The notes under the pieces are model-generated. The model saw nothing but the letters and a program-made list of their open reading frames with translations, searched no databases and was not told the origin of the DNA. From contig BBZX01000004.1 in the NCBI GenBank assembly GCA_001305055.1, forward strand, positions 124,001 through 188,000: 64,000 nt of DNA. Direction: 5' to 3'. Position 1 is the first letter of the stretch, and each line of letters opens with the position of its first letter. The position numbers were made by a program, and so were the translations under genes. Positions 39,649 to 63,200 of this stretch are shown here, in pieces. The DNA is from Clostridia bacterium UC5.1-1C12 (GTDB lineage Bacteria; Bacillota_I; Bacilli_A; Erysipelotrichales; Erysipelotrichaceae).

Positions 39649-40499
39649 CTATTTATCAAAAAACTTACGGCGCTCTGTCGATTGAATAAATTTCTGTTTC
39701 ATGCCATCGACATCCTCAGCCATCAGCTTTTGTTTAAAATCATTAATCTCATCTACAAAAGCCGTAATCTCATTGACCAATACATCTTTATTCATCAAAA
39801 ACAACTCAGTCCATAGATTTTCATTAATCTTAGCGATTCGGGTTAAATCACGGAAACTGTCACCGGTATATTCCTTTAAATGCGAGTTGTCATTTGCATT
39901 CATTAATGAAACAGCGATGACATGTGTCAGCTGTGATAAGTAGCCTATCATTTCATCATGTTTTTCCGGTGTAAGAATACAGATATTATTGAAGCGCAAT
40001 TCAATACCAAATTCATAAAGAAAATCGATAGCTGCCTGTGTGTTCTTTGATGTAGGCGTTATGATGAGATTTGCCGGTAAAAAGATAGAAGGGTCAGCAA
40101 ATTGAACACCGCTGACTTCCCTGCCGGCCATTGGATGACTGCCGATAAACTCACAGTCTTCACGCAGCAATTCCTGAATCTTATAGATAATACTGCACTT
40201 TACACCTGTCACATCCGTGATTAAAGCGTTCTTTTTGAAGTATTGCTGATTCTCACTGATCCAGCCAACGATGGTTTTGGGATATAAACCAGATATAATC
40301 ACATCAGCCCGGCTGATTAAATTCGGATCTGCAATTGCCGCTCCCTCATCAATAATGCCCTTTTCTAACGCATAGTCGATGGAAGCTTCGTTAATATCGA
40401 TGGCCGAAACGATATGGCCTCTTTTTTAAGACCCATCGCATAACTGCCGCCTAATAAACCAAGTCCGATAATCAGAAATCTTTTCTTTTTATCAATCAT
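39649..40499 (-). CDS. tyrA: Prephenate dehydrogenase (frameshifted)
   Basis: About 283 residues from ATG 40499. The NAD loop is LIIGLGLLGGSYAMGL in the first frame; one more A in the A run at 40422-40427 (T on plus) continues KKRGHIVSAIDINEASID into the second frame, IISGLYPKTIV, DVTGVKCSI and IGSHPMAGREVSG. The last, with catalytic His and Arg, is typical of TyrA. Converts prephenate to 4-hydroxyphenylpyruvate on the way to tyrosine. Overlaps aroA by 8 bp, last gene of the aro operon. No chorismate mutase domain is attached. Confidence 0.92.
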
Positions 40500-41758
40500 G
40501 AAACTCACTCACCTTTATCATTACCTTGCGGCAGTCATCAAAGAATGCCGGATAGCTTTTTTCAATATACTCCGCTTCATCAATAACTACCTCATGATCT
40601 GCAATCACCGCCGCTACTGTCAAAGCCATTACAATACGGTGATCTTTCCAGCCGCTGAGCGCATCAGGTGTCTGTGTCATGCCGCCATAAATGATAATTT
40701 CATCTTCACTGCTGCTGATTTCACAGCCAAACCTGCGAAGTTCTGTTTCCATTGCTAAAATCCGATCACTTTCTTTAATTCTCAGCCGGCCTGCATTGTA
40801 AATCTTAGTACGGCCTTGGGAAGCCATGGCGAGCGTACAGACAATAGGGCCAAGGTCCGGGCAATTATGCAGATCAATATCATGGGCATGCGGTACACCT
40901 TTGCATACATGATAACCGCCTTCAATCTCTTTAACAGTGATGCCGAAATCCTTGATGATATCAAGAATCTGCTTATCTCCCTGTAAAGAGTCATGGCGTA
41001 CACCTAAAATGTCCAAATCATGATTAAGCGCCGCCATCACCGCAAAGAAAGCAAATTGTGAAAAATCACCTTCCACAGCGGTATCATGAGAATGATAACG
41101 CTGATTACCTTTAATATATAATGTATTCTCATCCTCAAAGCTGACTTTACGCCAAACTCTTCAAGCATCTGCAGCGTCAGCAGCACATAGCTTTTAGATT
41201 CAAATGTATTTTCAATATGGATTCTTGAATCATCCCCAAGCAGCGGCAGAATGAATAACAAGCCGCTTATAAACTGTGAAGACACATTTCCCGGCAAAGT
41301 ATAATTACCAGGTTTCAGTGTCCCTTCAATAGTGATTGCATGCTCATCCTGTTCATAGAAGCAGCCCTGAGCTTTAAACAAATCCTCGTAAATCTTCTGC
41401 GGGCGTTTCAAGAGACGATTTTGCCGGTAAAGCTGACCCTTTGTCCAGTCGCAGCAAAGAGGGGAATAAAGAATCGCAGGGTAGAGCCTGATTCATTACA
41501 GTTTATCACAGACGCATTCAAGTGATTAAAATCCTTGATGCCGTTAATTTTTAAGCTGTGCTCATAGCATTCAATTTCTGCTCCTAAAGCGCGCATCCCT
41601 TCTATTGTTGTCTGTACATCCACTGAATAAGCAATATTGTCGATGTGTGAAACTCCCGGTGCCAGACAGGCGCAAAGAATCGCACGGTGACTCATGCTTT
41701 TGCTTGGCGGTATCTTTACACTGCCGCTGCAGGCGGAAGGCGTAACCGTCACTTTCAT
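40492..41758 (-). CDS. aroA: 3-phosphoshikimate 1-carboxyvinyltransferase (EPSP synthase; frameshifted)
   Basis: About 422 residues over three frames. Start MKVTVTPSACSGSVKIPPSKSMSHRAILCA is typical, with the PEP-binding lysine in PPSKSMSHR. Internal NCNESGSTLRFF, the second-half LRIKESDRILAMETELRRFG and HRIVMALTVAA are conserved. Missing bases near 41419-41422 (A) and 41144 (G) restore GKNRLLKRPQKIYED and GVKVSFEDENTLYIKG. Produces EPSP for chorismate. Within the operon it stands 1 bp after aroF copy 1. Confidence 0.94.
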
Positions 41759-41759
41759 C

Positions 41760-42775
41760 TTACAGATCCCTGCCGATCACTTGCGCGATCGCACGGCCTT
41801 TCTTAATTACATTCGCAAATTTCTCTGGTTTCAATGACTGCGCGCCATCACTCCACGCGCATTCAGGGTTATCATGTACCTCAATAATCAAACCATCAGC
41901 ACCAGCCGCAATGGCAGCTAAGCTCATTGATTCAATCAGTTTCCAATTACCGGTCGCGTGTGATGGATCAATAATAATCGGCAGGTGTGTCTTTTCCTTA
42001 ATGATTGGAACAACACTTAAATCTAAAGTATTTCTTGTATATTTTTCAAAAGTACGGATACCGCGTTCACATAAGATAACATTTTCATTGCCGCCAGCCA
42101 TGATATACTCTGCTGACATGATCCATTCTTCAATTGTGTTAGCTAAACCGCGTTTTAATAAAATTGGCTTCTTAGTTTTACCTACCGCTTTCAGTAAAGA
42201 GAAGTTCTGCATATTTCTCGCACCGATTTGAATAATGTCGACATTTTCCACAAATTCATCGATATGCTCGGCATCCATCAGCTCACTGACAATCGGCAGT
42301 CCTGTGCGTTTTCTCGCTTCTGCCATGGCGCGGATACCCTCACTTTCAAGTCCTTGGAACGCATAAGGTGAGGTTCTTGGCTTATAGGCACCGCCGCGCA
42401 GCATATCACCGCCGGCTTCCTTGACTTCCTGTGCAATGCGGCAGATCTGATCTTCACCCTCGACGGAGCACGGACCACCGATAATCACAATTTTTCATTA
42501 CCGCCAATCTTAATACCTGCCGCTTCTACAATTGTATCTTCCGGATGGAAGAGACGGTTTGCTTTTTTATAAGGTGCCGCGATACGGGTAACATTCTCAA
42601 TCCATGGATTTGCTTTAATGATTTTTTCATCCAATGAGGTAGTATCCCCAATCAGACCTAAAATATGGTAATTACTTCCCTGTGAATTATTAACTTGAAA
42701 GCCTCTGTCTTCATAAGACTTAATAATTCGTTCAACTTCATTTTTCGGTGTATCTTTTTTTAATGTAAGTATCAT
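41760..42775 (-). CDS. aroF: DAHP synthase (type I-beta), copy 1 (frameshifted)
   Basis: About 338 residues. A small N-terminal ferredoxin-like regulatory domain ([20 protein letters not shown]) joins a TIM barrel with [43 protein letters not shown] and IIDPSHATG. One more A in the run 42491-42495 joins the two. Condenses PEP and erythrose-4-phosphate, the first step of the shikimate pathway. It resembles Thermotoga-type enzymes, whose N-terminal domain binds the inhibitor. It lies directly after a closely similar copy 2. Confidence 0.95.
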
Positions 42776-42787
42776 AATTTATCCCCT

Positions 42788-43803
42788 CTAGATATCACGG
42801 CCAATAACTTTGGCAATCGCTCTTCCTTTTTCAACAACCTGTTTGAATTTAGCCGGCTTTAATGACTGCGCACCGTCACTCCATGCGCATTCAGGATTGT
42901 CATGAACCTCAATAATCAAGCCGTCAGCACCTGCCGCAATTGCCGCAAGACTCATTGACTCAACAAGATCCCAGTCACCGGTCGCATGTGAGGGATCAAT
43001 GATGATTGGCAGGTGGCTCTTGCGTTTAATGATTGGCACAACACTCAGATCCAATGTATTTCTTGTATATTTTTCAAATGTACGGATACCGCGTTCACAT
43101 AAGATAACATTCTCATTGCCGCCGGACATAATGTATTCCGCTGACATCAGCCATTCTTCAATCGTATTACTCAAGCCGCGCTTTAATAAGATCGGTTTGC
43201 GGATCATACCCAGTGCTTTTAATAAATCAAAGTTCTGCATATTGCGGGCACCTACTTGAATCAGATCGACATTTTCAACAAACTCATCAATCTTATCCAC
43301 ACCCATAATCTCTGAAACAATTGGCAAACCGGTACGCTTTCTGGCTTCAGCCATATCCTGAATTCCCTCACTGCCTAAACCCTGAAACGCATAAGGCGAA
43401 GTTCTTGGCTTATACGCACCGCCTCTTAGCATTACACCGCCGGCATCTTTGACCTCTTGAGCAATGCGGCAGATCTGTTCCTCACCCTCAACCGAGCATG
43501 GGCCGCCGATTACAACAATATTTTCCTTGCCGCCGATTTTAATACCCGCGACATCTACCACTGTATCTTCCGGATGAAACAGGCGGTTTACCTTTTTATA
43601 AGGTGCCGCGATGCGGGTAACCTGTTCAATCCATGGATTCGCGCGAACGATTTTTCATCAACAATCGTTGTATCGCCGACAATACCAAATACGTTATAAT
43701 CAACACCGCGGATCAGATTGACTTCCAACCCTTTATCTTCAAATTCCTTAATAATTTTATCGATTTCTGCCTGTGGGGCACCCTTTTTACAAGTAATAAT
43801 CAT
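42788..43803 (-). CDS. aroF: DAHP synthase (type I-beta), copy 2 (frameshifted)
   Basis: About 338 residues. N-terminal domain MIITCKKGAPQAEIDKIIKE; barrel with [45 protein letters not shown] and DPSHATGDWD. One more A at 43651-43655 restores VDEKIVRANPWIEQVTRIA. RBS AGGAGAAAG; overlaps aroQ by 4 bp. The barrel is near-identical to copy 1 over long stretches, while the N-terminal regulatory domains differ clearly (for example [13 protein letters not shown] against VDYNVFGIVGDTT), so the two may respond to different amino acids. This is inference. Confidence 0.95.
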
Positions 43804-44243
43804 GATTCTTTCTCCTTTAATTTTTCAATCAATATTTCTATCGCATGCTTATATCCCTGAATTCCTTCACCGGTAATCGTTTTGAAACAAGCCAATCCCG
43901 GATAAGAAAGCTGCCTGAATGCTTCACGGCTTTCAATTTTAGAAATATGTACTTCTACCGTCGGGATACCCACTGCCTTTAATGCATCAAGAATGGCAAT
44001 GCTTGTATGCGTATAAGCTGCCGGGTTGATTACGATACCATCAATTCTGCCATAGGCTTCCTGAATCTTATCAACCAATGCACCTTCGTGATTGCTCTGA
44101 TAGAATTCTACCAGCACTTGATGCTCATCGCAAGTTTTCTGACATAAATCAAGCAATGCCTGATAGCTTTCACTTCCATAAATCCCCGGTTCTCTGATGC
44201 CGACCATATTGATATTCGGGCCGTTAATTACAAGTAACTTCAT
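43800..44243 (-). CDS. aroQ: 3-dehydroquinate dehydratase, type II
   Basis: 147 residues. Type II signature: MKLLVINGPNINMVGIREPG, catalytic Tyr in GIYGSESY, NPAAYTHTSIAI, EVHISKIESREAFRQ with catalytic His, and GEGIQGYKHAI. Converts 3-dehydroquinate to 3-dehydroshikimate. Overlaps the aroF copy 2 start by 4 bp. Unbroken frame. Confidence 0.96.
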   Translation of the reverse strand: MKLLVINGPNINMVGIREPGIYGSESYQALLDLCQKTCDEHQVLVEFYQSNHEGALVDKIQEAYGRIDGIVINPAAYTHTSIAILDALKAVGIPTVEVHISKIESREAFRQLSYPGLACFKTITGEGIQGYKHAIEILIEKLKEKES

Positions 44244-44255
44244 TAAATCGCTCCT

Positions 44256-45470
44256 TTATCTGTTTGAGGCTGCCTCAATTGTCGAGTTATTCTCTATTTC
44301 AAAGTGACTGTATTTCTGATACAGCGGCATCCGTTCCTTCTCCATTGCCTGCAGACGTTCTTTACTTGAGGAAAGCGGCCGGCTGTCATCAACCAACAAT
44401 GCGTCCAAATTGCGTCGAATATGGAAGATAATACCATTTTGTGCCAATGCCCGCATATTCTCTTCCTTTTTAATAATGCCGCCGCCGCAGGAAATAATCA
44501 GCTTTGTCTGCTTAGCGAGATCTTTACAAATCGCTGTTTCAATTTCCCGAAACTTTGCTTCACCCTCTGTGTCAAAGATTTCCCTGATTGTGCGCTGTTC
44601 TCGGCGGACAATTTCTTCATCAATGTCAACCAAACGTTTATCACAGCTTTCAGCCAAGTCCCGTGACAATGTTGTTTTGCCGCTGCTTGGCATACCGATT
44701 ATAACGATGTTGGCCATATCCTTATAGATTTCATCAGTAATCTGATAAATTATTTCATCATCAAGCGTTATGTCATGAAAGAATTCACATGCTGCCTTTG
44801 CCTGTGCTGCCAGCATTTCCAAACCATTCACATGCTTCAGCTTCAGTTCTTCCGCCTGCTGGCAGAGTCGGGTTGTCAATGGGTTATAGATCACATCAGC
44901 TACCGCCTCTACATGGTCAAAACCGGCAAGATCGATGATTTGATCCTCATTGTTCGGATACATACCGACGCTGGTCGCATTGATGAACACTTGAATTTCC
45001 TGATGCTGTTTCAAATCTCCATAGCTGATGATCGGTGCCGGTTTATTGCGACCAGCAACCAGTATTTCCTTCGCTCCCATCGCTTTTAATACCGCCTGTG
45101 CCGTTTTACTTGTACCGCCGGTTCCAAGTACACAGCAGCATTTATCCTTGATGACAATGTTATGATGCTCCAGCATCAGCTTTAAACCGGTAAAGTCGGT
45201 ATTTGTCGCTATCAGGCGGCCATTTCGGTTGACAATTGCATTCACCGCATGAATTGCTAATGCCTGTTCATCGATTTCATCACAATACTGCATTACAGTT
45301 TCCTTATAAGGAATTGTTACATTGATGGCTTTAAAAGCCTTTGCTTCCATGAACTCTGCGAGCTGCTGCTCATCAAGCTCAATTAATTCATAGGGCTGAT
45401 CAATCAGTTTTTCATGTATCATTTTAGAAAAGCTGTGCCCTAATTTTTTCCCAATTAATCCAATTCGCAT
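44256..45470 (-). CDS. aroEK: Shikimate dehydrogenase-shikimate kinase fusion
   Basis: 404 residues from ATG 45470 (an earlier start at 45488 lacks an RBS). Residues 1-255 are AroE: GLIGKKLGHSFSKMIHEKL, NVTIPYKETVMQYC with the catalytic Lys, and NADP loop GTGGTSKTAQAVLKAMG. From about 260, NIVIIGMPSSGKTTLSRDLA (Walker A), DIDEEIVRREQRTIREIFDT and ISCGGGIIKKEENM form AroK. The linker is IYQITDEIYKDMAN. The frame is continuous, so the fusion is seen as written, but RBS-like AAGGAT and ATG in KDM lie exactly at the junction. An indel just before would yield two separate genes. Reduces 3-dehydroshikimate and phosphorylates shikimate. Confidence 0.9.
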   Translation of the reverse strand: MRIGLIGKKLGHSFSKMIHEKLIDQPYELIELDEQQLAEFMEAKAFKAINVTIPYKETVMQYCDEIDEQALAIHAVNAIVNRNGRLIATNTDFTGLKLMLEHHNIVIKDKCCCVLGTGGTSKTAQAVLKAMGAKEILVAGRNKPAPIISYGDLKQHQEIQVFINATSVGMYPNNEDQIIDLAGFDHVEAVADVIYNPLTTRLCQQAEELKLKHVNGLEMLAAQAKAACEFFHDITLDDEIIYQITDEIYKDMANIVIIGMPSSGKTTLSRDLAESCDKRLVDIDEEIVRREQRTIREIFDTEGEAKFREIETAICKDLAKQTKLIISCGGGIIKKEENMRALAQNGIIFHIRRNLDALLVDDSRPLSSSKERLQAMEKERMPLYQKYSHFEIENNSTIEAASNR

Positions 45471-46557
45471 AATGAATCCCTCATCCATTCACCGCCATAG
45501 GCTTCAACACATAAATCAAGCAGGCACAAAGCGGTCACTGCATCAACTACGACTCTTGCCCGATGGAAAATTGCCGGATCATGGCGTCCTTTCAATTCCA
45601 ATATGGCATCCTTTTTCTCATTGTAATCAACCGTCTGCTGCGGCTTGAAGATGCTTGGTGTAGGTTTAATTACCGTTCTGAATAAGATTGGCATACCATT
45701 TGCGATACCGCCGTTGATTCCGCCATTGTTATTGGTTTTTGAAACGATCTTATCACCGCTCATCAGCCATGCATCATTTGCTTCACTGCCATAATGATTG
45801 ACAAAATCAAAGCCCATTCCGAATTCAACCCCCTTGACTGCCGGCACTGAGAATAGATACGCACTTAGACTGCTCTCAATCGAATGAAAATAAGGCTCGC
45901 CGATGCCGGCCGGTACATTCAGAATCATTGTTTCAAGAATGCCGCCAACGCTGTCCTTTTGGGCCGCCGCCGCTTCTATCAGGTTGATCATAGCACTTTG
46001 AGCATCACTGTCCAACACGGCAAAATCCATGGCTGACAAAGCTTTTAAATCTGCGGTCAGATCAACAAATTCACGGTCATGAACATTCATGCACTGTTTG
46101 ATATGGGTACCAATTAAAATGCCCTTTTTTCAAGAATCTGTTCAGCAATCGCGCCTGCCGCTACCAATGGAGCAGTAATTCGGCCTGAGAAATGTCCGCC
46201 GCCGCGGTAATCCTGACAGCCGTGATATTTCACATAGGCCGTGTAATCAGCATGTGAAGGTCTCAGCAGCTGCGGTGTATAATCTCTGGATTGCTGTTCC
46301 TTATTCATGATTTGAATATGCAGGGGGGTACCGGTTGTGCAGCCATTAAAGTAACCGCTGGTTATATGAAACAAATCCTCCTCATGGCGCTGTGTTGATA
46401 TCTTTCCCTTAGCCCGGCGTTTATCAAGCTGTGCCTGAACCGCATCGAGATCAAGCTTAATGCCAGCTTCTAAACCATCGATGACCACACCGATCGATTC
46501 ACCGTGGCTTTCACCATAAAGTGAAATCGTAATATTTTTGCCGATTGTACTTTTCAT
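45455..46557 (-). CDS. aroC: Chorismate synthase (frameshifted)
   Basis: About 367 residues. Signatures GESHGESIGVVIDGLEAG, RRAKGKISTQRHEED, SGYFNGCTTGTPL, DYRGGGHFSGRITAPL (FMN/flavin-site region) and SNNNGGINGGIANG-type residues near the C-terminus. One more A in the run 46125-46130 (T on plus) gives EKKGILIGTHIKQC and joins the halves. Makes chorismate from EPSP with reduced FMN. Follows aroB by 9 bp and overlaps the start of aroEK by 16 bp. Confidence 0.95.
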
Positions 46558-46566
46558 GAAAACCTC

Positions 46567-47586
46567 CTATAAGTATTTTCTTAATGTCTCAATATCAACA
46601 TCAATTAACTGCGCATGACCAATTTCTTCAACCTGTACGATGGTAACCTTTTTGCCATCGGCTTTTTTATCATTGAATATTAAATGAATGACTTCATCAG
46701 GATCATAAGCCGCATCAATCGGCAGATTCATTTTAGTCAATATCGCCTGTAAACGCTGTTTAATTTCCTCATTCTCGATAATTTTCATCATTCCGATGCT
46801 GACACATTCACCATGATAATAATCATGAAGGTGGTACAGACTCTCAACAGCATGACCGATGGTATGACCAAAATTCAATATTTTACGAAGATTGGCTTCC
46901 TTTTCATCCGCCTCAACCACTTTCTTCTTGACAATTAAGGAACGGGTAATAATTTCCTCAAGAATTTCATCGGGTTCATTATTCTGGAAATCGGCGTCAT
47001 GTTTCTCAAAAAGCTCAAACAATTCAGGATCGGCGATTAAGCCTTCCTTGACCGCTTCCGCAAGACCGTTATAGTAATGCCGGCGCGGCAGTGTTTTTAG
47101 AGTTGTTAAGTCTACAATTACCACCTCCGGGTGATAGAAGGTCCCTAATACATTTTTTACTTCATCCAGATTGATCGCTACCTTGCCGCCGATGCTGGAA
47201 TCAATCTGTGACAGTGTTGTGGTTGGAATTGATGAAAAATGGATGCCTCTTTTAAAGGTAGCCGCTACAAATCCGCTTAAGTCGCCGATGACACCGCCGC
47301 CCAGCGCAAGAATTAAATCATTTCTTGAGAAGTTCAATTCCAGAAGCTTCATGCAGATCTGCTGATAAACACGAACGCTCTTAGCACCCTCACCCTGCTC
47401 GGTAATAAACAAATGACCGTTAGGGCATTGTGACAAGACAAGCTGCTGATATTCGGCAGGAACTCCCTCATCAGTGATGATCATCACCTTGCGATTCAGA
47501 TCAATGTAATCTGCCAGCTGTGTTATCGCGTTTCTAACTATAACAATACGGCTGCTTGCTTCACTTAAGTTAACTGATAATTCCAT
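46567..47586 (-). CDS. aroB: 3-dehydroquinate synthase
   Basis: 339 residues from ATG 47586 (MELSVNLSEASSRIVIV). The RBS AAAAGGAGATCAGAAT decides this start; an apparent upstream extension to 47676 crosses the leader terminator and is not coding. NAD/metal motifs ILALGGGVIGDLSGFVA, SQIDSSIGGKVAIN, GLAEAVKEGLIADPEL and ILNFGHTIGHAVESLY are all present. Converts DAHP to 3-dehydroquinate. First structural gene of the aro operon, downstream of an attenuator-like leader. Unbroken frame. Confidence 0.96.
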   Translation of the reverse strand: MELSVNLSEASSRIVIVRNAITQLADYIDLNRKVMIITDEGVPAEYQQLVLSQCPNGHLFITEQGEGAKSVRVYQQICMKLLELNFSRNDLILALGGGVIGDLSGFVAATFKRGIHFSSIPTTTLSQIDSSIGGKVAINLDEVKNVLGTFYHPEVVIVDLTTLKTLPRRHYYNGLAEAVKEGLIADPELFELFEKHDADFQNNEPDEILEEIITRSLIVKKKVVEADEKEANLRKILNFGHTIGHAVESLYHLHDYYHGECVSIGMMKIIENEEIKQRLQAILTKMNLPIDAAYDPDEVIHLIFNDKKADGKKVTIVQVEEIGHAQLIDVDIETLRKYL

Positions 47587-47604
47587 ATTCTGATCTCCTT
47601 TTTT

Positions 47605-47638
47605 AATAAAAAAAGCATCCGTCTTACCAGAATGCTTT
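47605..47638 (-). terminator. Attenuator terminator before aroB
   Basis: On the minus strand AAAGCAT (47638-47632) and ATGCTTT (47618-47612) pair, flanked by further pairing C-G, and a U7 run follows. The RBS of aroB begins a few bases later. An intrinsic terminator inside a leader before an operon is the mark of attenuation. Confidence 0.85.
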
Positions 47639-47643
47639 GTTAT

Positions 47644-47703
47644 GCCCCTCTTTTGATTAAAAGTCAAAATGACCAATCGTATTTCGAATTGGTTTATCGG
47701 GGC
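47644..47703 (-). promoter_or_regulatory. Structured leader RNA: three-way junction between leader peptide and terminator
   Basis: GCCCC (47703-47699) pairs with GGGGC (47648-47644) and encloses two hairpins: ACCAAT/ATTGGT (47693-47672) and TTTTGA/TCAAAA (47669-47651). The peptide's stop codon is adjacent to the outer stem. A ribosome stalled on the aromatic codons could shield the start of the fold. Alternative: part of an uncharacterised riboswitch. Confidence 0.7.
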
Positions 47704-47751
47704 CTAGCAATAAAAGTAAAAGACTGACGCTTTATTTAACATTGTTTTCAT
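47704..47751 (-). CDS. Leader peptide rich in aromatic residues (aro attenuator)
   Basis: ATG 47751 to TAG 47704 encodes 15 residues, MKTMLNKASVFYFYC; an in-frame second ATG at 47742 would give 12. The four codons TTT-TAC-TTT-TAT for Phe-Tyr-Phe-Tyr directly precede Cys and the stop. Such a run is expected by chance very rarely and is exactly what ribosome-stalling leaders show before aromatic amino acid operons (as in E. coli pheA). Downstream are a structured region and an intrinsic terminator, then aroB. When Phe-tRNA or Tyr-tRNA is low the ribosome would stall and favour read-through. The start codon is weakly supported, since no good Shine-Dalgarno is present and the -10 box is close. 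Confidence 0.75.
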   Translation of the reverse strand: MKTMLNKASVFYFYC

Positions 47752-47757
47752 GCTTCA

Positions 47758-47786
47758 AGTTTAAAACAATTTAAAATGAATTGCAA
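47758..47786 (-). promoter_or_regulatory. Candidate promoter of the aro operon
   Basis: Minus strand: TTGCAA (47786-47781) and TAAACT (47763-47758), 17-bp spacer. Transcription would start at about 47751-47752, next to the leader-peptide ATG, giving a leaderless or nearly leaderless peptide. Another promoter further upstream is possible. 47787-47924 otherwise shows no gene. Confidence 0.5.
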
Positions 47787-47924
47787 GTAAAAAATGAAAA
47801 GAATTTCACCATTCAATGAAAATTTATATCAACGCTGTTACATTTATCGGCGATCAGAAAAACATTCATTTTGAAACAGACCTATGATACACTTAGTTTA
47901 ACAATTATATCAGGGGAAAAACTT

Positions 47925-57290: not shown

Positions 57291-60200
57291 TTATTTTTGT
57301 TCGTCCTGCTTAAGAGCCTTCTTCCTTTTAGTAACCTTACGAAGGATGAATGCTGCGATTGCGATCAGTATCAGCAATGGCAGCCAGCACCATGGGCAAA
57401 TACAAGTAAAGGTTGGGAAGAACTGATACCAGAACTCACATAGTATACAACCGCAAGTTACACCGCTTGTAGTTAGTTCGCTTGGTTCTGCCGTTGTACT
57501 TTCTTCCTTGAAGGTAACTTCGATCGTGGTATCCTCATTGATTTCATCTAAAGTTATACTTCCTGAAGATACAGCTACTTCTTTGCCATTAACATATACT
57601 TTATCAAGTACATAACCGTTTTCCGGATAGAAGTAGAAAGTCTGTTCCCTTCCCTTAATTACTTTTAGCTTATCGGAAGGACTGATTGAACCGCCCTTGC
57701 CATCAATCGTTACAATAATCGTTACAAATTCGTCAGCTTCCTTAGCGTCAGTATTCGCATTCGTTTCCGTATCAGTAGCTGCAATATTGCCATTATCAAA
57801 ACCTTGGTTTGTCGGTTTCTCCGGGGTCTCCGGCACTGGTTGTTCGGCTGGCTTTTCAACAGGTGTCTCCGGTGTTTCTTCAGGAGTTGTATCAGGTGTT
57901 TCCTCAGGAGTTGATCCCGGTGTTTCCTCAGGGATTTCTTCCGGTTTAGGTTTAGGCTTATTACCGCCGCCGGTATTACCACCCGTATTGCCTGTGTTCT
58001 CAACCTTAAAGGTAACACTTATTGTATGATTAGCCGTAATGTTATTAAACTTCCAATAATTAGAAACACTCACTGCTTTTCCGTCTACAATTACCTTATC
58101 AACCTGATAACCGGTATCCGGTATAAAGTAAATGCTTAGACTGCCATTCTTGTTCACTGTGGTTTCACCGGATGGTGATACAGCACCGTGACTGCCTGCC
58201 GTAGATGTAATCGTGAATGTCGAATTATCAGGAGTACTGCCGATTGGTCGGATTGCCGCCATATCGTTCTTAGCCTCATTGAAAATCTGGAACATTTCAC
58301 TTAACATTGCATCATCAGCTAAAGCACCCTTAAGATCATTTACACCTTGGTTATAAATATCCGTTAATTTCTGATAATTTTCCTCAGTATAATCATTCTG
58401 ATCATATTTCTTGTACTCAGCTTCAAGTTTTGCTAATAGATCATTCAAATCCTTTTCAGTAGCAGGGCGGTCAGCCATCGTTGTCGGCTTTGTCACCACT
58501 GCATCATAGATTTCTCTGATTGTAGGACCATAGAATAATTCATCAACAGCCTCTTGAACACTATCAGGCAGCTTATTCAGAGCTACAACAGCATCAGTAA
58601 CCTTATCTGCGATATTGGCATCACTAACCTTGATACCATTGTCTGAATCTTTAGAAAAACCTTCGCCTTCATATTTTTTGTTATCCGTTGTCGCATATTC
58701 CTTCACAAAGATTTCCGCAAGTTTGTCTGATTCTTCATGAAGCTTTTCTCTTGCCTTATCTAATTCATCCTGCTGACTGCTTAATTCCTTTTGAATCTCA
58801 ATCGGCAGTCTGTCAATCATATCCTGTACTTGATCGATGGCTTTCTGATAAGCAACAAGCTCATCAATACGCTCACTTACGGTTCCATCCCTATCAGTAT
58901 TACCTATAATACTATCAGAATCAGGATCAAAAGAAGGACACTCCGGTAAGTTAACAACTAAACCTGATACATAACCAACATCGCCTAACTCTACACGTCT
59001 CAGCGTGTCAAGTAAATCCTTAAGCTCCGGCAGCTTACCGGTTGGATCAGCTACTTGCTGCATCTTCTTTGACAATGTGTCATATTCGATACCGGCTTCA
59101 TCGATGCCTGTCTTTTGATCTTCGCTGACTGCACCTGAAATCGTATTATACAATGCATCTAACTCATTCTGGCGTGCCTCAACAGCTGCTTCCAGATCAG
59201 CATCTTCCGGATCTGCTTCTGCCGCCGCCTTTGCTTCATTCAGTGCATCAATAGCTGCTTCCAGCTGTTCTTTAGCTGCAACTAGGTTGCTCTTATCCGC
59301 ATCCTCATTATCGATAGTGCCGTTAAGATCATTATCGATCGTACTATGCAGTGATTCAATCTTATCACGGAGTAATTCCGCACGTTCATATTCTCTGATT
59401 TGTTCTTCAAGATCAGCTAAGACAGGTTTCTTATCTAACAAGTGAGAACGGTTTTCATCAGATAATGAATCTAATGCACCTTCTCTGAATTGTTCGATTA
59501 ACTTATGCACCAAATCCTCGCTTGCCTGACGATCATCAGCATCATCAAAATTGATGTTGCCATCAAAGTCTAAGTAGCTTTCCAATGCTTCATAATCTTC
59601 AATGAAAGATTGATATTGTGTATTTTGCGGTACACACATTAATTTCAAATCATTGAAGCCAGGGAATACATTGCCGGTTAATACTTCGTAATAATCAGCA
59701 AAGCTATTCACATTGATTTCAATTTCACCGCTATTACTTGTACGGTCTAACAGTGGATTACCGCCTTGTACCCAAGTCAAGATACCGGCTTTTTCTAATT
59801 CAGCAACTTCAAATAACTCACCGCCTGCCCAAAGTGCATCCAGTGTATGATAAATTATCCCGCTTTTTACAAAGTCATCTTGTTTAAAGTTCATTGCGAT
59901 AGACAGAATATCATCTGCACCCTCATTAGGCAGCAGAATTTCTACTTCATCGCCTAAATAATCAGTAACCTCTGCATCACTAACAGGAATAGTCTCTTCC
60001 TTGGCACTGCTTGCTTCACCGGTTTTCTTAGCCGTCATGGTAATACTGTTTAAACCATCCGGATTGCTTGTGATAACCTCTAATGCTGTCGGCAGCTTCC
60101 AGCCATTCAAAACAGTATCTACACTGATACGTCTAATATCGGCAGCTTTTGCTTCTTCTGCACCCATTACCGCAGTCAAAATCTCATCAAGAGCAGCACC

Positions 60201-63200
60201 CGGTATTGTAACCTTTAAGCTATCTACGGCAGTACCCATGCCTTCCATTACCGGCCGGCTTAATTCAACTTCATAAGATGTGCCGTTACGGTCAGTAACC
60301 GTAATCTTGCCATCGCTGCTGCTCTTAGGAATACTGATCTGTGTACCATCATCGGTAATAATCGTGATGCCGATCAAATCAGTTAATTCTTCAAGCTTAA
60401 TGTTATCAACTAATAAATCATCAAGTTTGCTGACACTTAACGGTGCTTTATTCAGCTTAGTATGCAAGTCAATACCCGCTGTTACCGCTATGCCCTGACC
60501 TGCATTTCCACCATTATCCTCAGTATTTACATCAACATGCGTCAAAGTCTTATCACTTTCTTGCGCTGCTTCCAAAATACCGGATAGAATTTCAGGTGAG
60601 AGTGTGATCGTATAAGGTTCACCCTCATTGCTGATTACATTACTTAAATCAATATCCTTTAATGCTTCAGTTAAATCAACAGGTTCACCCTTTTTAACTG
60701 CCAGGAGTTCACCCGCAGGCGTAACCGTTATAATCGTATCCTTTTCTTGACCGATCATTAAGGTTACATTCTTCACATGATGATCCTCATCCTCAGCACG
60801 TACGTCATGGATCGTAATTCCCTTATCGATATTCATGTCCTCAAGGATAACCGTTTTAACTGCTTCCTCTGTACGGATTGAAGGTGCAGAGCTTAATCCC
60901 TCATGGGCTTTGATTGTATCAGGTAATAAATGGCCATTCTTTACATCATCAACCTTGATACTGCTGATAAACATATTTTTAGGCTCTTCTAAACCTGAAA
61001 GCTGTTTCACCAGCTCATGAAGCGTATCACCCGGAATGGTGATTGAATAAGGACTATTTCCTTGTAGGCTGCCGCCTAATTCTTTACTTAAATCTATTTC
61101 CCTTACTTCACCCGCAGGCTTACCGTTATCCGGATTGATTTCCACTGCAGCGATCGGCTCAGTAATCAGGGTAGCCGGATAATCAGCAGGAAGCTTCACT
61201 TCATAAACCTTTTCATTTCTTGCTTCGTCAAATACGTGCACACGAATTGCAGTCCCATCCGGAATGTAATTTGGTGCCGTTTGAATATCAGTTAAAATTA
61301 AATCATTATAAATGCCTTCCTTATCAGGCTGTACATCTTGTACGCCGTTAGATGTAGTAACCTTTGGTGTGTCTGTCTTGCTTGCGGAACCTGCTGGTTC
61401 GGCTGTTTCAGGCAATGTTATACCAAAGTCGGATTTCGCATTTACGACAATCTTTTGAATGTCAGTATCCACCGGACTGATGTCAATTACATCGGCGATT
61501 TCTTCAGCCGTAAGTACACCTTGAACAGCCTCACTGATGATTGCATCAAGTGCATCGCTCGGAATCGTAATCTTATTCTGATTTGTGTCAGCATTAAAAT
61601 CAACTGTTACCGCAGTTTCAATCTTAACTGTTACACGAATTGCATGTGAATCGCCATGTTCATCCTTATACACTACATCCACTTTTACAGCTGTATCAGC
61701 ATCATTGATTGAAGGCACCGGTACACTGATAATGATCGGCTGGCCAGTAACCGGATTTTTAACCGTCATATCCACATTTCTTAGCGAAAAATTCTTTTCT
61801 ACTGTATTCTGATCGATGATTAATGCCTCAGCACCTTCAGTGACCTTGATTGCGAGCTTATTCACGTCGTCCTCACCATCATTCACTCTTACAATGCCCC
61901 CATTTACTACACCGACACCGGCTTCTGCATCTTTAGCCATAGCCACGGCCGTACCTGCAACAGCAGGCAGTCCATAACCGATACGGTTACCGGCAATAGT
62001 GACAGCATTGATTACACCCGCAGTGATTGTACCGTCAGCTTTTAAAGCATTCAATAGAGCATCAATACTAGCACCCGGTAATACAGCTACATTTTTATCA
62101 TCGCCTTTTTCATTAACAATAACACCTTGGATTTCTCCAACATTCAGCTCTTTTTCATTGCCGTTTGGCTGAATGATCATGACTTTTCCATCAGGAAGAT
62201 TTTCTGCATCCGTTACCGGAATAACCACCTTTATTGTACTTCCGGTATTTGGATCGATAATATCAACAATCATACCGCCAATTTCATGTGTTGGCTTAGT
62301 AACAATGCTCTCTACCTTTAAATCAGAACTATTGTCATTCATACCCGTTGAAGGCTTAGTGATCGTACCGACACCTTGAATACCGGCACCCGCACTGCCA
62401 TTTGTAAGTTTATCTGACAATGGCATAGCATCTGATATAACCTTCACATCGCTTACCACAACGGTGGATAAATCAACATCGCCTAACTGCTTCTTAACTG
62501 CATCAGCTAATTGTTCAGCAGTGACAGCCGTTTGGAAATCATTTGGATAGTCGAGTTTATCACCCTCATTGATTTCTTCATAATCATCGGTATCCTTTTT
62601 CTGAGTATTTGTATGATCCGCCGGCACATAAACAACATGTGTCTGCTTATTCTTATCCAATACCGTTATCTCTATACCCTTATAGACATAACCGTCAGCC
62701 GGCTTGATTGGCTGAATCGTAATGCCCTCATCGCCTAAGGTAATCGTTGTATCAGCATTGCTAGGATCACCGGCAGTATTCGTGATCGTACCCTTTACAG
62801 CAGCAGTCTCGAGGAAGCCTTCACCCATTGTTGGTTTAGTGCCATCAAATGCCTTGACCTCATCGGTATTGATTACAAGCTTACCGATCACACCACGGTC
62901 GCCGCAATTGCCGCAATCTTTTCATTTGAAATTGTAACCTTTTTCGTACCGTCAGCATTTGTGTCAATGGTTAAATCACCAATGGAAACGACTTGATCCG
63001 TTGTCGTTCCTTTATCAGGATCGATCATTGAAATAGTTACCTTTTGAATTGAATTACCCGGAAGAACGGATACATGATCAAGAACTAAAGGATTACCACT
63101 GCTTACACCACCGGCTGTCGGATTGATTGTAATCTGTTCCAGCTTATCCTGATCAATACCGGCATCAGCACTCACACCCTCGTTAAATACCGGTAATACA

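Follow-up and report, generated by a model that had tools for sequence, protein, structure and literature searches.

Operons of the shikimate pathway are thought to be controlled in Firmicutes mostly by T-boxes, and ribosome-based attenuation fits poorly with an RNA polymerase that outruns the ribosomes. Leader-peptide attenuation, including that by Phe/Tyr upstream open reading frames (uORFs) before shikimate genes, is already known or predicted elsewhere. The E. coli-type Phe leader (RF01859, the pheA attenuator) has Phe codons, a leader-codon strand that pairs downstream, and a terminator. In Acholeplasma, the uORFC-13-1 motif lies before aroF and has 24 representatives, from Acholeplasma and unassigned sequences (PMC8632094), and two uORFs of shikimate genes have been noted for their Phe and Tyr codons (PMC6429828). 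Attenuation by His leader peptides has been predicted in Firmicutes (PMC2965389), and in Erysipelotrichales, Peptostreptococcaceae and the B. cereus group (PMC9413887); that of the S. aureus ilv-leu operon has mutants in its support (PMC5794164), and leaderless cysteine attenuators are named for mycobacteria (PMC9031893).

The window, meaning the whole 64-kb stretch of DNA analysed, carries a short ORF with Phe and Tyr codons, a structured RNA and a predicted terminator ahead of a shikimate operon. An earlier note had taken this for a leader-peptide transcription attenuator that senses charged tRNA-Phe and tRNA-Tyr before the whole operon, and we give that reading a probability of about 0.8. 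The locus resembles RF01859 in its Phe codons, its leader-codon strand with a downstream partner and its terminator, but the leader strand pairs here with the terminator itself; the full-length match of the Rfam model to the window (27.5 bits, E 0.006–0.015) is half the gathering score of 55, and no match at E 0.5 or better was found on either strand of 20 family loci. By its description, uORFC-13-1 also joins a Phe-coding uORF to a terminator ahead of a shikimate gene, in a low-GC relative. It is set apart in lying only before aroF, with a minimum of one Phe codon plus one more paired element; the section that describes it gives no alternative folds (PMC8632094). The uORFs of PMC6429828 share Phe/Tyr codons and shikimate genes with ours and are likened by description only. 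The predicted His leaders belong to the same order and the same kind of attenuator but differ in amino acid and are given for six species of the order (PMC9413887), whereas the S. aureus leader has Leu/Ile codons, a different fold and a putative ribosome-binding site before it (PMC5794164), and the mycobacterial attenuators share a leaderless short ORF but concern cysteine and actinobacteria (PMC9031893). Among open-licence papers, searches for aromatic leaders of the order or the genus showed none whose title, abstract or passages describe this one. As far as these searches reach, the new elements are an order-wide family, a switch in which one segment has three partners, variants that use a spare strand or the ribosome-binding site, and a predicted leaderless start.

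The features, all on the minus strand, are listed in the order in which they would be transcribed.

47781..47786, minus strand: -35-like hexamer TTGCAA, 17 nt before the -10, a spacing shared by 9 of 11 leaders of the window's subgroup
47758..47763, minus strand: -10-like hexamer TAAACT, whose distance of 6 nt from the leader AUG predicts a transcription start at or near the A of that AUG
47704..47751, minus strand: leader ORF, MKTMLNKASVFYFYC and stop, 15 codons, predicted leaderless; F/Y-rich leaders are conserved in the order
47726..47733, minus strand: leader segment L, AAAGCGUC, a copy of the terminator 5' strand that is able to pair with the terminator 3' strand (p=0.0074, 11 species)
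47710..47721, minus strand: Phe-Tyr-Phe-Tyr codons UUU UAC UUU UAU, read in the sequence
47699..47703, minus strand: stem P1 5' strand GCCCC, the first bases past the stop codon (permutation p=0.0014, 11 species)
47672..47693, minus strand: inner hairpin ACCAAU..AUUGGU, then a U-rich stretch; CCA..UGG with a U-rich run recurs by eye
47651..47669, minus strand: second inner hairpin UUUUGA..UCAAAA, window-specific, absent from 4 folded relatives
47644..47648, minus strand: stem P1 3' strand GGGGC, pairing with GCCCC 50 nt upstream
47612..47638, minus strand: predicted intrinsic terminator hairpin, AAAGCAUUC..GGAUGCUUU, kept in the family, with a U-tract continuing to 47608
47595..47600, minus strand: aroB ribosome-binding site AAGGAG, read in the sequence
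46567..47586, minus strand: aroB, the operon's first gene (PF01761 and PF24621), ATG at 47586
39649..47586, minus strand: operon aroB-aroC-aroE/K-aroQ-DAHP synthase-DAHP synthase-aroA-tyrA, from domain matches

The leader, the GCCCC/GGGGC stem, the terminator and the aroB ribosome-binding site that the earlier note had described are all present on the minus strand of 47587-47790. The peptide has the 15 residues and the Phe-Tyr-Phe-Tyr run claimed for it (M K T M L N K A S V F Y F Y C stop, 47751-47704), but the run was placed one codon too close to the stop, since a Cys codon lies between them. Folding of 47602-47702 (101 nt) gives -22.7 kcal/mol (z -2.59; 4 of 200 shuffles do as well), and that of the whole 211 nt gives -42.8 kcal/mol (z -1.85, 6 of 200). 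A three-way-junction-like shape does appear in the window's own fold, but the four relatives from its subgroup that were folded (L019, L020, L021 and L024) have instead a single inner hairpin with a near-continuous helix, so that the second inner hairpin is not conserved; a three-way-junction aptamer was rejected, the second hairpin being missing in these four. A pairing reported as weak between the Val-Phe-Tyr codons and the terminator loop exists, but belongs to a longer helix between leader and terminator (-15.5 kcal/mol), which is present in the minimum-energy fold of the whole leader. The U-rich stretch after the ACCAAU..AUUGGU hairpin is a possible RNA polymerase pause site.

Domain matches and the reading frames of Dielma fastidiosa confirm that eight aro genes follow the leader. 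Their products are AroB, AroC, a shikimate dehydrogenase-shikimate kinase, a type II dehydroquinase, two DAHP synthases, EPSP synthase and prephenate dehydrogenase. The AroB of the window is 99% identical to that of D. fastidiosa JC13, in which eight long, closely spaced open frames follow the same order of sizes; the identity of these frames rests on a 94% DNA match to the window. Between 39649 and 46557 of the window, aroC and aroA are split, and the frames of a DAHP synthase and tyrA are shorter, where D. fastidiosa has long open frames. The alignment of the two contains 20 gap positions in 10.9 kb, which suggests that the split and shortened frames are long-read assembly errors. Elsewhere in the window, at 57291-62891, a very long ORF of 1866 aa with repetitive stretches and a hydrophobic C-terminal part has, by eye, the look of a surface protein.

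Against this background of divergence the leader hardly varies. Across the operon region the window and D. fastidiosa differ by 652 mismatches in 10907 aligned bases (6%), and just upstream of the promoter by 10 in 102 positions, versus 1 in 35 from the -35 box to the leader ATG and 1 in 165 from there to the aroB ATG; at the operon rate, one change or none in 165 has a binomial probability of 0.0004. Sequence constraint begins at the promoter.

Comparison was extended to the order, in which aroB was found in 177 of 315 genomes. Upstream regions were obtained for 146 of these (30 and 116); the 31 left out include cases with aroB at a contig start (e.g. G045), and a second aroB copy of G189 was also omitted. 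A leader was recognised by rule as an ORF of 7–30 codons with at least four Phe/Tyr among its last eight residues, ending 90–300 nt before the end of the fetched stretch, and the rule was applied to 140 regions, namely the 139 of sufficient length and the window, the D. fastidiosa region (L013) being excluded as a near copy. Such leaders precede aroB in 77 of the 140, as against a mean of 6.35 in dinucleotide shuffles (range 3–11 in 20 rounds), 8 of 140 on the reverse strand and 4 of 135 in a more distal upstream stretch; 63 regions have no F/Y leader by this rule, and none of the 20 of them that were scanned contained an Rfam family at gathering level. Curation reduced the set to 72: six leaders were dropped as likely chance (L030, L102, L104, L112, L139 and L143), L017 was added by hand, and ORFs or starts were reset by hand in six leaders and then in two more (L025 and L035), as were the terminators of L020 and L066. 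The last eight residues of the curated leaders comprise 213 Tyr and 153 Phe among 576, partly as a result of selection; Trp, which the rule did not penalise, occurs there in none of the 72. Both Phe and Tyr are present in 65 leaders and Tyr only in 7. Downstream, a hairpin with a U-run of -10 kcal/mol or better follows 60 of 72 leaders versus 4 of 216 shuffles, and at -6 kcal/mol 71 of 72 versus 41 of 216. A plasmid search with the leader found no match. The outcome that the earlier note named as refuting, aromatic codons or stems without conservation in relatives, was thus not observed: the codons are conserved (77/140 against 6.35), and so, through sequence change in the window's subgroup, are P1 and the terminator; many relatives in the order seem to keep such a Phe/Tyr switch in varied forms.

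These data also bear on explanations that do without a Phe/Tyr leader peptide. The most sceptical, a constitutive terminator with a chance ORF and no regulation, starts from the fact that AT-rich DNA, when shuffled, still yields F/Y runs in about 6 regions of 140, but it would have to account for 77 of 140, for the alternative helices described below and for near-invariance against D. fastidiosa, and we consider it most improbable. Just as little credence attaches to a T-box leader too divergent for Rfam. T-boxes are a usual device in Firmicutes, and the D. fastidiosa genome has 22 matches at E<=0.001, the nearest on the aroB contig being about 61 kb from aroB; but the earlier note's remark that no T-box sequence is present was borne out, with no match to RF00230 in the leader and consensus matches found only at three mismatches, at chance level (7 against 4.42 expected) and none in the leader. 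A T-box identity was thus rejected, and the 165 nt from AUG to aroB hold a conserved ORF. No Rfam family reached its gathering score in the 64-kb window, and STnc350 and other near-matches below cut-off were rejected. A metabolite riboswitch or protein-binding leader, to which the short ORF would be incidental, is improbable too, if less so. It would suit a structured element before a biosynthetic operon, and the trpB motif, which is among strong riboswitch candidates (PMC11109978), weakly matches one locus (L043, 34.4 bits against a cut-off of 59); yet the F/Y codons persist while the stems change freely, leader composition is far from chance, and no conserved aptamer-like core is seen by eye.

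On the RNA that follows the stop codon the 72 leaders were sorted by hand into group A (11, including the window), group B (47) and group C (12), with two unassigned (L063 and L119). The fullest evidence for switching comes from group B, the sister group, for which 42 of 47 leaders (41 distinct) were aligned, leaving out near-duplicates (L028, L077 and L117), one with a mis-assigned terminator (L048) and one divergent sequence (L060). After the stop come a hairpin A:B, a segment C (approximately GGCAUUAUCUGAAUGG) and a terminator whose 5' strand and loop form segment D (approximately CCAUACGGAUAAUGCC). Pairing is maintained in 91.2% of cells for C:D, the antiterminator, in 84.2% for B:C, in 90.6% for leader end:C and in 97.8% for the terminator, with 27, 19, 10 and 59 double-change cells against 10.2, 6.9, 3.9 and 10.5 in shuffles, respectively, whereas in slid controls at most 52.3% of cells pair. 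None of 500 shuffles reaches the covariation score of any of the four helices. Under a stricter count of pairs changed on both sides, the observed value is reached by 3 of 500 shuffles for B:C and 1 of 500 for the terminator, and is not exceptional for C:D (100 of 500) or leader end:C (64 of 500); relatedness among the sequences is not corrected for in any of these shuffle tests. Since C:D, B:C and leader end:C all beat shuffles, segment C has three partners, and the alignment supports in group B a mutually exclusive antiterminator and gives the full logic of an attenuator.

By this predicted logic, a ribosome at the stop codon would cover A, so that B takes C and the terminator forms (off); one stalled on Phe/Tyr would let A:B form and C take D, preventing termination (on); and with no ribosome the leader end would take C and the terminator would form (off). 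Folding of group B transcripts before most of the terminator 3' strand matches the first two states. With the ribosome at the first F/Y codon, mean probabilities are 0.95 for C:D and 0.00 for B:C, and at the stop 0.72 and 0.54; moving the ribosome to the stop raises B:C in 30 of 42 leaders and lowers it in none, and stalling raises C:D in 17 and lowers it in 1. Equilibrium folding did not reproduce the fail-safe without a ribosome (leader end:C), C:D still standing at 0.84. In 43 of the 72 curated leaders the last residue is Arg, which in group B goes with a conserved strand, UUUAGAUAA, that pairs with segment C; hence, the end of the peptide may be shaped by the RNA fold.

Group C, tested without the near-duplicate L059 and, in later tests, with L027, has its stem P1 starting at the stop codon and kept through strong sequence change (0 of 5000 permutations). 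The Shine-Dalgarno sequence and start codon of its leaders pair with a segment inside P1, at up to -24.2 kcal/mol (p=0.0004), a pairing that is incompatible with P1 and would bar ribosomes from the leader. Complementarity between this start region and the downstream stem, with compensating changes between species, was observed in L039, L041, L057, L023 and L032, giving the appearance of a self-closing leader.

In group A the terminator is kept through change (0 of 5000 permutations, 11 leaders), and P1 (p=0.0014) and the pairing of L with the terminator 3' strand (L:T3', p=0.0074) are also supported by permutation among the 11 species. Segment L lies just upstream of the Phe/Tyr codons, AAAGCGUC matching AAAGCAUUC in the window; its pairing is kept with other letters in L072, but 3 of the 11 leaders have it only in a weak form (above -5 kcal/mol). 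The best antiterminator candidate for groups A and C, marginal in A, is a longer P1 that would also pair the last codon and stop to the terminator 5' strand (UGCU with AGCA in the window). At three footprint offsets it gives p=0.075, 0.135 and 0.50 in A and 0.011, 0.004 and 0.059 in A and C together, and as a plain duplex 0.47 in A and 0.049 in A and C, all uncorrected for multiple tests. Other upstream segments paired against the terminator 5' strand or loop were not significant in A, C or both (lowest p 0.078), and duplex tests of own against swapped strands gave no clearly supported antiterminator on the terminator 5' strand in A or C. No weight was given to a D1:T3' pairing (p=0.044 in A, 0.048 in A and C) or to sliding windows near the promoter with t of about -4 among 833 uncorrected tests.

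The sequence comparison supports, for the window, the leader, P1 at the stop codon, the terminator and the copying of the terminator 5' strand by L, and what P1 could sense is occupancy of the stop codon by a ribosome. When both Phe and Tyr are plentiful, the ribosome would reach the stop and cover the P1 5' strand, so that P1 is blocked and the terminator folds (off). With either scarce, it would stall on the four aromatic codons, short of the last codon, the stop and P1, which stay uncovered; P1 would then form and its base extend into the terminator 5' strand, favouring read-through (on). We read stalling on Phe/Tyr as the on-signal because in all three groups it is the state that frees the hairpin at the stop codon to form. 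With no ribosome, L would pair with the terminator 3' strand beside the U-tract as a replacement terminator stem (off); if P1 does extend in this way, L can be understood as a spare terminator strand, holding the operon off while the leader is free of ribosomes. Read-through by P1 extension and the role of L as a spare stem are the weakest steps of this proposal.

For the window, thermodynamic folding speaks against this proposal. At equilibrium the terminator of the window has a probability of 0.85–0.86 with the ribosome stalled, 0.86 at the stop and 0.00 without a ribosome, so the stalled ribosome by which the earlier note would have termination set leaves the terminator intact. Before the terminator 3' strand emerges, its 5' strand is engaged at 0.77 with the ribosome at the stop and at 0.49, 0.01, 0.01 and 0.80 at the four stalls, a modelled pattern that mostly runs in the wrong direction for an operon switched on by stalling. 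Over all 72 leaders the terminator wins at equilibrium in nearly every state; 11 switch as expected (terminator above 0.5 at the stop and under 0.5 at one of the first three stall positions) and none in reverse. Folded before the terminator 3' strand, 18 go in the expected direction and 13 in reverse, all 13 in groups A and C, and the window stays outside these 13 only through its last stall position, at 0.80.

Since the window's terminator is equal in the stalled and stop states and falls to 0.00 without a ribosome, we retain another wiring of the same attenuator, in which L:T3' would act in the window's subgroup as the antiterminator and form whenever the leader is free of ribosomes; read-through would then depend on how often the leader is translated and not on stalling at Phe/Tyr. 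In its favour, L:T3' is the sole clearly supported helix that competes with the terminator of the window (p=0.0074), and the ribosome-free fold gives just the loss of termination that it calls for. Antiterminators, however, usually pair with the strand made first, whereas L takes the terminator 3' strand; L adjoins the Phe/Tyr codons and is covered in every stalled state, which would mean less expression in starvation; and L:T3' reaches the U-tract as a terminator stem does. We regard this wiring as unlikely. The Phe/Tyr attenuator remains our preferred interpretation, supported by conservation of the leader, the kept stems and the alternative helices of the sister group, with the response to Phe and Tyr itself a prediction; the switch of the sister species is better supported than that of the window and seems to do the same task.

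In group A, 9 of 11 leaders have the arrangement TTGNNN-17 nt-TANNNT-6 nt-ATG (six found by script, three read by eye from the sequences). At usual promoter spacing, a -10 six nt before the AUG would have the window transcript begin at or near the leader AUG; its leader is therefore predicted to be leaderless. Promoters are mixed in group B (a gap of 6 in 7 of 47, and of 7–9 in 7 more), and in group C 12 of 13 leaders examined have GGAG before the start and 11 of 13 a -10 box 21–23 nt away. An AUG at the 5' end of the transcript would, in this reading, let a 70S ribosome bind immediately and follow RNA polymerase at the same pace. The full layout, in which the codons of a leaderless leader double as a spare terminator 5' strand and expression of the operon requires a ribosome to be held on the four Phe/Tyr codons, is advanced tentatively, the odds being somewhat against it as a whole. 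It includes the view, drawn from the three group layouts, that one sensing task has been wired in at least three ways within one order: by a spare terminator strand, by one segment with three partners, and by a segment that would shut the ribosome-binding site of the leader itself.

The element may extend beyond aroB. R1, a model of the group B off-state, matched 62 of 314 order genomes at E 0.01, in a list whose weak end is unreliable, and six of the matches away from the known aroB regions were examined (L159–L164). One leader, MIKLDKKGFYYFYYR and stop (L159), precedes a DAHP synthase (Pfam) and an ORF reading like tyrA; three that are Phe- or Tyr-rich (L160, L161 and L163) precede ABC substrate-binding proteins, with PF04392 in the two scanned (L160 and L163), and these transporters perhaps serve aromatic amino-acid uptake. 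Leaders of these three are Phe-rich (SFFFFFR, stop) or Tyr-rich (YYYFYYS, stop), with a similar attenuator fold. An aroB-type leader lies at a contig end (L162), and in G085 a group B-like terminator stands before an aroC-like ORF without a clear F/Y leader (L164), perhaps a decayed attenuator. Over 395 genomes of the class R1 gave five matches, namely three already known from the order, a bare terminator (L169) and, in a genome outside the order sample, a His leader, MKIQLQEQVHWHHHF and stop (L168, E 4.7e-4). The latter has a similar fold at about 1460–1640 and, some 600 nt on, an ORF that reads like hisZ, with what looks by eye like another structured RNA between them.

For annotation, the gain would be that aro operons of Erysipelotrichales, and some PF04392 transporters, can be marked as Phe/Tyr-controlled. 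T-boxes are common in the D. fastidiosa genome but absent at its aroB, and a Phe/Tyr attenuator found across an order whose genomes carry T-boxes (22 in D. fastidiosa) offers a test of when each device serves. A leaderless start, as predicted here, offers an answer, open to test, to the problem of coupling ribosome and polymerase, and the same input and output, wired through different RNA in many species, would constitute a natural experiment on the evolution of attenuators.
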